A stretch of DNA of 39,632 nt. Origin: a virus. Numbering within the stretch: the stretch's first letter is position 1; each line of letters begins with the position of its first letter. The stretch is from the IMG/VR virus record IMGVR_UViG_3300034198_008680, positions 1 through 39,632 of that record. One strand, written 5' to 3'. Position numbers and translations under genes: made by a program. Under the pieces are notes generated by a model. The model had not been told where the DNA came from. It was given only the letters and a program-made list of their open reading frames with translations, and did no database searches. This document shows positions 1,505-2,503 of this stretch, piece by piece.

Positions 1505-1563
1505 CCGGCCTCTGCCTCTTGGTGGTGTGCTGCGTAGTGCTGATGGTGGAATGCCATGAGTAG
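1501..1563 (+). CDS. 20-residue hydrophobic Cys-rich peptide
   Basis: Tiny ORF encoding MTGLCLLVVCCVVLMVECHE. Its ATG overlaps the stop of the GapR-like gene (ATGA), and its own end overlaps the methyltransferase start by 8 nt. It has one short hydrophobic segment with four cysteines. It may only couple translation into the methyltransferase gene, or be a genuine membrane micropeptide; sequence alone cannot decide. Confidence 0.4.
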   Translation: MTGLCLLVVCCVVLMVECHE

Positions 1564-2503
1564 GGGTGGCTCGCTTACGCTCGCGGAGAACTGCGGCAAG
1601 CAGGAGTGCGCCAAACTCAAGGTGTTGGACCTCTTCTCAGGCATCGGCGGCTTCAGCCTTGGCCTTGAGCGGACGGGCGGCTTCAAGACCGTCGCCTTCT
1701 GCGAAATCGAGGAGTTTCCCCGCCGCGTGCTGGCGAAGCACTGGCCGGACGTACCCATCCATCGAGACGTGCGGGAGTTGAAGGCGGAACATGTCGGACC
1801 AATCGACGTTATTTGCGGCGGATTTCCCTGCCAGGATATCAGCACGGCTGGCAAAGGCGCGGGGCTCGCAGGTGAACGCAGCGGCCTCTGGCGTGAATAC
1901 GCCCGTCTTGTTGGCGAGATTCGACCCCGATACGTCATCGTGGAGAATGTCGCCGCGCTTCTCGGGCGAGGACTCGGAACCGTTCTCGGGGACTTGGCCG
2001 CGCTCGGGTACGATGCGGAGTGGCATTGCATCCCGGCTTCCGCCGTTGGCGCCCCTCATAGGCGCGATCGGGTCTGGATTATTGCCTGCGCCGGAGGCGA
2101 GCAACACGAAGTCCAAAGCGATGCGATCGGGCGGAAGATCACCGCGCGACTTCATGAAGCCTTGGCCCACGCCAGGAGCGAACGATGCACAGAAGCGCGG
2201 AAAGATCGCGAACGACCCAAGGAACGGACTTCCGGCTGCGGTGCGGTTTTTCCCGACACCGTGTGCGGCGGACAATCGAGACAGGGGCGGACCAACGACA
2301 CCGGCCATCCAACGGCGCGCGGAAATAGGGAAATCAATAGAATTATCCATGACTGTGGATGGTCCTTTGAACCCGACGTGGGTCGAGTGGCTTATGGGGT
2401 TCCCTTTGGAGTGGAGCGCCTTACCGGACTCGGCAATGCCGTCGTCCCGCAAGTTCCCGAAGCGATAGGCCACGCCATCTTGGCAGCGGAGGGCCGCGCA
2501 TGA
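1556..2503 (+). CDS. DNA cytosine-5 methyltransferase
   Basis: Transfers a methyl group from S-adenosylmethionine to carbon 5 of cytosine in a specific DNA site. Length is 315 residues. Motif I DLFSGIGG is at 25-32; motif IV GGFPCQ ends at 93, with Cys92 the catalytic nucleophile; motif VI ENV is at 130-132; motif VIII RDRVWI at 170-175; motif X GLGNAVVPQV at 291-300. The target-recognition segment between 176 and 290 is short and rich in Arg/Glu. There is no restriction partner nearby, so it is probably an orphan enzyme that protects phage DNA or alters expression (inference). From 1791 to 2468 the same DNA also carries a long protein-like +1 frame, described separately. Confidence 0.95.
   Translation: MSRGGSLTLAENCGKQECAKLKVLDLFSGIGGFSLGLERTGGFKTVAFCEIEEFPRRVLAKHWPDVPIHRDVRELKAEHVGPIDVICGGFPCQDISTAGKGAGLAGERSGLWREYARLVGEIRPRYVIVENVAALLGRGLGTVLGDLAALGYDAEWHCIPASAVGAPHRRDRVWIIACAGGEQHEVQSDAIGRKITARLHEALAHARSERCTEARKDRERPKERTSGCGAVFPDTVCGGQSRQGRTNDTGHPTARGNREINRIIHDCGWSFEPDVGRVAYGVPFGVERLTGLGNAVVPQVPEAIGHAILAAEGRA
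1791..2468 (+). CDS. Second protein encoded in another frame inside the methyltransferase gene
   Basis: A 225-residue frame lying wholly within the methyltransferase gene. Unlike a random shadow it reads like a real protein: RFDPDTSSWRMS (43-54), GTWPRSGTMRSG (67-78), PWPTPGANDA (124-133), FFPTPCAADN (153-162) and WVEWLMGFPLEW (197-208), ending in PSSRKFPKR. From memory this set recurs in phage hypothetical proteins found near cytosine methyltransferases; a search must confirm that. The two frames interlock: IRPRYVIVENV of the enzyme is encoded by the same bases as RFDPDTSSWRMS, and LAHARSE by those of PWPTPGANDA. An AAGGCGG-type ribosome site precedes the ATG at 1791. Function unknown; a partner of the methyltransferase is a guess. 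It could also be a conserved but untranslated frame. Confidence 0.6.
   Translation: MSDQSTLFAADFPARISARLAKARGSQVNAAASGVNTPVLLARFDPDTSSWRMSPRFSGEDSEPFSGTWPRSGTMRSGIASRLPPLAPLIGAIGSGLLPAPEASNTKSKAMRSGGRSPRDFMKPWPTPGANDAQKRGKIANDPRNGLPAAVRFFPTPCAADNRDRGGPTTPAIQRRAEIGKSIELSMTVDGPLNPTWVEWLMGFPLEWSALPDSAMPSSRKFPKR

Follow-up and report, generated by a model that had tools for sequence, protein, structure and literature searches.

The cytosine methyltransferase (MTase) gene of this phage appears to be two genes in one, and we consider it probable, at roughly four chances in five on what can be read from sequence and structure models, that a single stretch of DNA here specifies both chains of a two-chain C5-cytosine DNA methyltransferase, with the nested frame (ORF2) as a beta subunit made up of the recognition domain and motif IX. 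The nested beta subunit is the most likely reading because motif IX is found in ORF2 and is absent from the MTase frame, because split and fused relatives exist, and because the model of a fused relative matches M.HhaI. The window, meaning the whole stretch of 39,632 nucleotides that was analysed, is a phage record of 39.6 kb that carries genes for the terminase, the portal and replication. An earlier note on this DNA had described a second frame of 225 codons in the +1 register of an intact MTase gene, and this was confirmed. The features of the locus are as follows.

1556-2503, plus strand: MTase ORF (proposed alpha chain, 315 aa), with motifs I-VIII and X but lacking a canonical motif IX, and with a full-length match to the MTase-frame HMM
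1616-2083, plus strand: alpha motifs I-VIII (catalytic domain), amino-acid constraint strong (dNN/dSN 0.12-0.20)
1781-1784, plus strand: Shine-Dalgarno-like AAGG, 6 nt upstream of the ORF2 ATG at 1791
1791-2468, plus strand: ORF2 (proposed beta chain, 225 aa), ATG 1791 to stop 2468, +1 frame, wholly inside the intact MTase ORF; PHROG_1008
1920-1946, plus strand: ORF2 motif FDPDTSSWR, the +1 reading of the bases coding IRPRYVIVEN
2084-2362, plus strand: alpha segment at the position of the recognition domain, open but amino-acid-neutral (dNN/dSN 1.01, CI 0.91-1.11; ORF2 frame 0.42)
2253-2261, plus strand: ORF2 PTP motif (FPTPCAAD), one of the PTPxAxD repeats, whose number varies
2363-2425, plus strand: alpha RVAxGVPxxVxRL segment, whose +1 reading is motif IX, where ORF2 constraint is strongest (0.10)
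2370-2414, plus strand: ORF2 NPTWVEWLMGFPLEW, corresponding to C5-MTase motif IX; in MTase-frame relatives the motif aligns to M.HhaI 270-307, colinear with I-VIII, with weak bits alone
2426-2494, plus strand: alpha motif X (GLGNAVVPQ...), where the ORF2 frame is neutral (0.89)

The MTase ORF matches PF00145 (E=2.3e-43), with the match confined to residues 21-185, which correspond to motifs I-VIII, and the PCQ and ENV expected of a C5-cytosine DNA methyltransferase are present. Motif IX is missing from this chain, with RVAYGVPFGVERL at that place, and it is the C-terminal end of ORF2 that matches it (NPTWVEWLMGFP). The correspondences between motifs of the two frames that had been pointed out earlier were also right, and can be read off positions 1919-1969, where the two frames give IRPRYVIVENVAALLGR and FDPDTSSWRMSPRFSGE, and positions 2372-2470, where they give PDVGRVAYGVPFGVERLTGLGNAVVPQ and PTWVEWLMGFPLEWSALPDSAMPSSRK. 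Searched by sequence against Pfam, NCBIfam and PDB, ORF2 had no match. Just upstream of the MTase, at 971-1504 of the window, lies a phage-encoded protein with a GapR-like DNA-binding domain (PF10073, 3.5e-28).

Since a conserved protein passes part of its conservation on to the +1 frame of its gene, the null model consisted of shuffles of synonymous codons that keep the MTase protein and its codon usage. ORF2 is open in 11% of these shuffles of the window gene (1.8 stops expected), so the window on its own is not decisive and it is the family that settles the question; across 168 loci the median probability of an open frame is 0.7% per locus. Viral contigs were searched by the MTase frame only, to avoid selecting for ORF2, and a complete ORF2 was found in 79 of 80 loci, always in register +1, the single exception being cut by the contig end. 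Between fixed MTase landmarks the +1 frame is free of stops over ~167 codons in 72/79 loci, while the +2 frame is open in 0/79. Prokaryote-genome loci from many phyla, selected by ORF2, had the full MTase overlap in 75/80 cases, again always at +1. Real ORF2s score 185 bits to the ORF2 HMM versus a mean of 64 bits for the +1 frames of shuffled genes, and among the 160 loci outside the HMM training set the real score exceeded the best of 20 shuffles every time (160/160). That shuffled frames still score 64 bits means the motif similarity is partly a shadow of MTase conservation. Canonical phage C5-MTases, used as controls, have LTPxExxRLQGFP in their own frame, 6-22 stops in the +1 frame, and 10-16 bits to the ORF2 HMM.

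OLGenie-type substitution rates were calculated from 36 independent pairs, as dNN/dNS for ORF2 and dNN/dSN for the MTase. Upstream of the ORF2 start only the MTase shows constraint (0.12), the +1 frame being neutral (1.02). From ENV to motif VIII both frames are constrained (MTase 0.20, ORF2 0.47), and change that is synonymous in the MTase drops about fourfold, from 1.16 to 0.30. The roles are reversed in the recognition region, where the MTase is neutral (1.01, CI 0.91-1.11) and ORF2 is constrained (0.42). ORF2 shows its strongest constraint (0.10) at RVAxGVP/WVEWLMGFP, the site of motif IX, with the MTase at 0.33; over motif X it is the MTase that is constrained (0.13), with ORF2 evolving neutrally (0.89). 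In every region the ratio for the +2 control was above 1. Together with the shuffles, these rates show that ORF2 behaves as a genuine and widely conserved dual-coding gene under protein-level selection in the family, which bears out the earlier note's suggestion of real dual coding, with both frames under purifying selection.

Across the recognition region the MTase frame contains 0 stops versus 358 expected in shuffles keeping only the ORF2 codons; the loci in this test were chosen with an open MTase frame, yet the frame is open in 79/80 MTase-selected loci and 75/80 ORF2-selected genome loci. These counts and the neutral ratio show the MTase reading here to behave as an amino-acid-neutral spacer that is kept open. 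In one locus (L204, 2805-2809) a lone stop codon lies in the neutral spacer of the MTase frame, and both ORF2 and the downstream motif X stretch stay open.

Relatives differ in how the motifs are shared between the frames. In the nested type, to which the window belongs, motif IX is in ORF2 and motif X in the MTase frame. In an actinophage type (L278, L288 and others) IX and X are both in the MTase frame, and the N-terminal half of ORF2 and the PTP repeats are in +1. In a split type (Euratis, phiBT1, Lemur, Paraburkholderia adhaesiva L215, L302 and L313) the MTase ends after motif VIII and ORF2 carries the recognition region, IX and X; IX and X both lie in the second chain in L005, L174-L180, L215, L302 and L313. 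Finally, locus L181 is a one-frame fusion of I-VIII, ORF2 and X, in the order VIII - YDPDTHTWRT...PTP...NPRFVEWMMG - X, which scores 53 bits to the HMM built from nested ORF2s. The non-overlapped parts of ORF2 past the MTase stop in split relatives match this same HMM (93 bits, E=1e-27 for L215), and a match beyond the MTase stop cannot be produced by a shadow effect.

It had also been suggested that the ORF2 motifs form a phage protein family that is in places a separate gene. The family does exist as PHROG_1008, which the window ORF2 matches at E=4.1e-34 and to which 83/83 ORF2s tested belong, although its name ('DNA methyltransferase') derives from the overlapped enzyme and the ORF2 members tested have no Pfam methyltransferase match. 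No stand-alone ORF2 without an MTase was found in the 80 genome loci or in those viral loci that were inspected; the "separate gene" makes up the second half of a methyltransferase that is split, or is fused to one. A Paenibacillus bovis plasmid (NZ_CP021170; L190, 2045-2509) carries a second ORF2 C-terminal half (PTP..NPAWIECMMGFPEGW) with no overlapping MTase match, and this copy was rejected as a free-standing ORF2, as it lies directly behind a nested pair. A locus of this type occurs five times, in apparently identical copies, on the chromosome of a Roseovarius MAG (OX638333.1, L247-L251). In Streptococcus phage Javan565 (L346, 1441-2148) the MTase frame stops without IX-X, and a 200-codon +1 frame with similarity to the ORF2 N-terminal half (50 bits) continues; this may be a further split variant, from Bacillota.

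Motif IX corresponds to NPxWVEWLMGFPxGW at the end of ORF2. In the actinophage-type loci this motif is found in the MTase frame, immediately ahead of X, and a profile built from these MTase-frame relatives matches M.HhaI at 1e-30 for motifs I-VIII and colinearly aligns motifs IX and X to HhaI 270-307 (RKLHPRECARVMGYP...GNSVV), with motif IX alone contributing only 1.8 bits. AlphaFold gave a poor prediction for ORF2 alone (pLDDT 63, pTM 0.31), which would fit a dependence on alpha but is no proof of it. The L181 fusion, with alpha and ORF2 in one chain, was modelled with a pTM of 0.81, with low confidence in the middle of the ORF2 part (252-294, 320-331). This model aligns end to end with M.HhaI (272 residues, model 3-449 to chain 1-324, Z 24.8, rmsd 3.6), with the ORF2 part occupying the place of the HhaI small (recognition) domain. 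Unlike the loci studied here, M.HhaI is a single chain in a single frame and has no PTPxAxD region.

How ORF2 is expressed bears on whether it is a separate chain. An ATG is found at ORF2 profile positions 5-20 in 101/143 non-redundant loci (79 expected), and a Shine-Dalgarno-like stretch lies upstream in 58 of these 101 versus 31 expected (z=7). It is conceivable, but quite unlikely, that programmed frameshifting instead yields the functional product, with ribosomes passing from the MTase frame into ORF2 and perhaps shifting back before motif X. Relatives do switch frame at different points, before IX, after IX or after X, apparently through shifts of a single base, and L040 shows what seems to be an early fusion. 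However, ORF2 is already constrained across the bases of motifs VI-VIII, which would be needless if it were entered after VIII; the excess of start codons and ribosome-binding sites also speaks for internal initiation, full stops separate the chains in split relatives, and the window type would need a return shift. In L040 itself (1707-2683) the MTase N-terminus is in the ORF2 frame and the remainder in the MTase frame; this one-base shift may reflect either a genuine fusion or a mistake in the assembly.

The earlier note had proposed that ORF2 is a partner or an inhibitor of the enzyme. An independent overprinted regulator or inhibitor, with no catalytic role, would be co-encoded with the MTase and have its own start, as ORF2 does, but we regard this as very unlikely given that ORF2 has the motif IX absent from the MTase frame, has motif X too in split phages, and is fused between motifs VIII and X in L181. 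Since these motifs are required by the enzyme, the partner is supported and the inhibitor is not. That ORF2 is a mere untranslated shadow, with conserved MTase residues and GC-rich codon use forcing an open and similar +1 frame, is extremely improbable and, at the family level, already refuted by the substitution rates: it would account for the 64 bits of shuffled genes and the 11% chance of an open frame in the window, but real scores lie above every shuffle at 160/160 loci, ORF2 dNN/dNS is 0.10-0.47 inside the gene and about 1 outside, ORF2 conservation extends to stretches without an overlapping MTase frame, and canonical MTases have +1 stops and only 10-16 bits.

Two-chain enzymes of this kind have precedents. 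M.EcoHK31I recognises YGGCCR and belongs to a bacterial restriction-modification system, while the family described here is from phages; its small chain is reportedly translated from a second frame within the large gene, as ORF2 (1791-2468) lies inside 1556-2503. Two natural two-chain C5-MTases have been described, M.AquI (I-VIII / IX-X) and M.EcoHK31I (I-VIII and X with the predicted recognition domain / IX), the latter a characterised two-polypeptide C5-methyltransferase in which motif IX is in the small chain and both chains are needed (PMC3404938). By that published description, the window has the same division of motifs as M.EcoHK31I, but the predicted recognition domain of M.EcoHK31I is in the large chain, whereas in the window family that segment of the large chain is neutral and ORF2 is constrained there. 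M.AquI fits the split relatives (Euratis, phiBT1, L215), with IX and X in the second chain; its chains divide the motifs in linear order, unlike the window, which keeps X in alpha and has beta nested in the alpha gene. With the window following the EcoHK31I division and the split relatives the AquI one, the kind of system is already known (PMC3404938), and the earlier view of it as little described would apply to the phage family only. We found no description of overlapping phage methyltransferase genes in the literature searched, which left most subscription journals beyond its reach, and in that literature the phage-wide unannotated family, the neutral linker, the way the constraint reverses over the recognition region, the overprinted N-terminal half and the split and fused series appear undescribed.

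On the nested-subunit reading, alpha (1556-2503) would hold motifs I-VIII and X, and beta (1791-2468) the target-recognition region and motif IX, with translation of beta in this phage probably beginning at the internal ATG with its own ribosome-binding site. The two chains would assemble into one HhaI-like enzyme in which beta is the DNA-reading chain, and the alpha reading of the recognition region would serve only as an open spacer, holding motif X in the same chain as the catalytic motifs. The likely role of the enzyme is to protect phage DNA from host restriction by methylating it. The motif FDPDTSSWR is what the +1 frame gives at the RPxxxxxEN region, which C5-MTases share, suggesting that at least the N-terminal half of beta arose by overprinting of bases coding the catalytic domain; the overprinting origin proposed earlier is thus supported for this half. 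The C-terminal half (recognition region and IX) presumably belongs to the ordinary enzyme plan and changed frame by indels at positions that differ among types. We lean, with some reserve, towards a wider reading, in which a de novo overprinted protein became an obligatory subunit of the overlapped enzyme, responsible for DNA recognition, the MTase frame in that region decayed to a stop-free spacer, and the nested design is ancient and widespread among phage C5 methyltransferases, going unseen in databases since annotation retains one frame only.

The arrangement recurs in hundreds of phages, and annotators nearly always give one frame only at these loci, an exception being the Paenibacillus phage Diva record, which labels ORF2 'g49 internal gene'. 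In phiBT1 (AJ550940; L345, 421-1471) gp9.1 is annotated 'DNA methylase may be inactive', and the recognition region with IX-X is in an unannotated +1 ORF that overlaps gp9.1 and then continues past it. Many phage 'DNA cytosine methyltransferases' would therefore be half annotated, and enzymes cloned or modelled alone should look inactive, as phiBT1 gp9.1 may illustrate. To our knowledge, long same-strand dual coding in dsDNA phages has rarely been proven. The present support comes from well over a hundred of the loci examined, spread over many phyla, with a proposed mechanism and with natural split and fused intermediates, and the overlap would make a clean test case for selection that does no more than keep a frame open.
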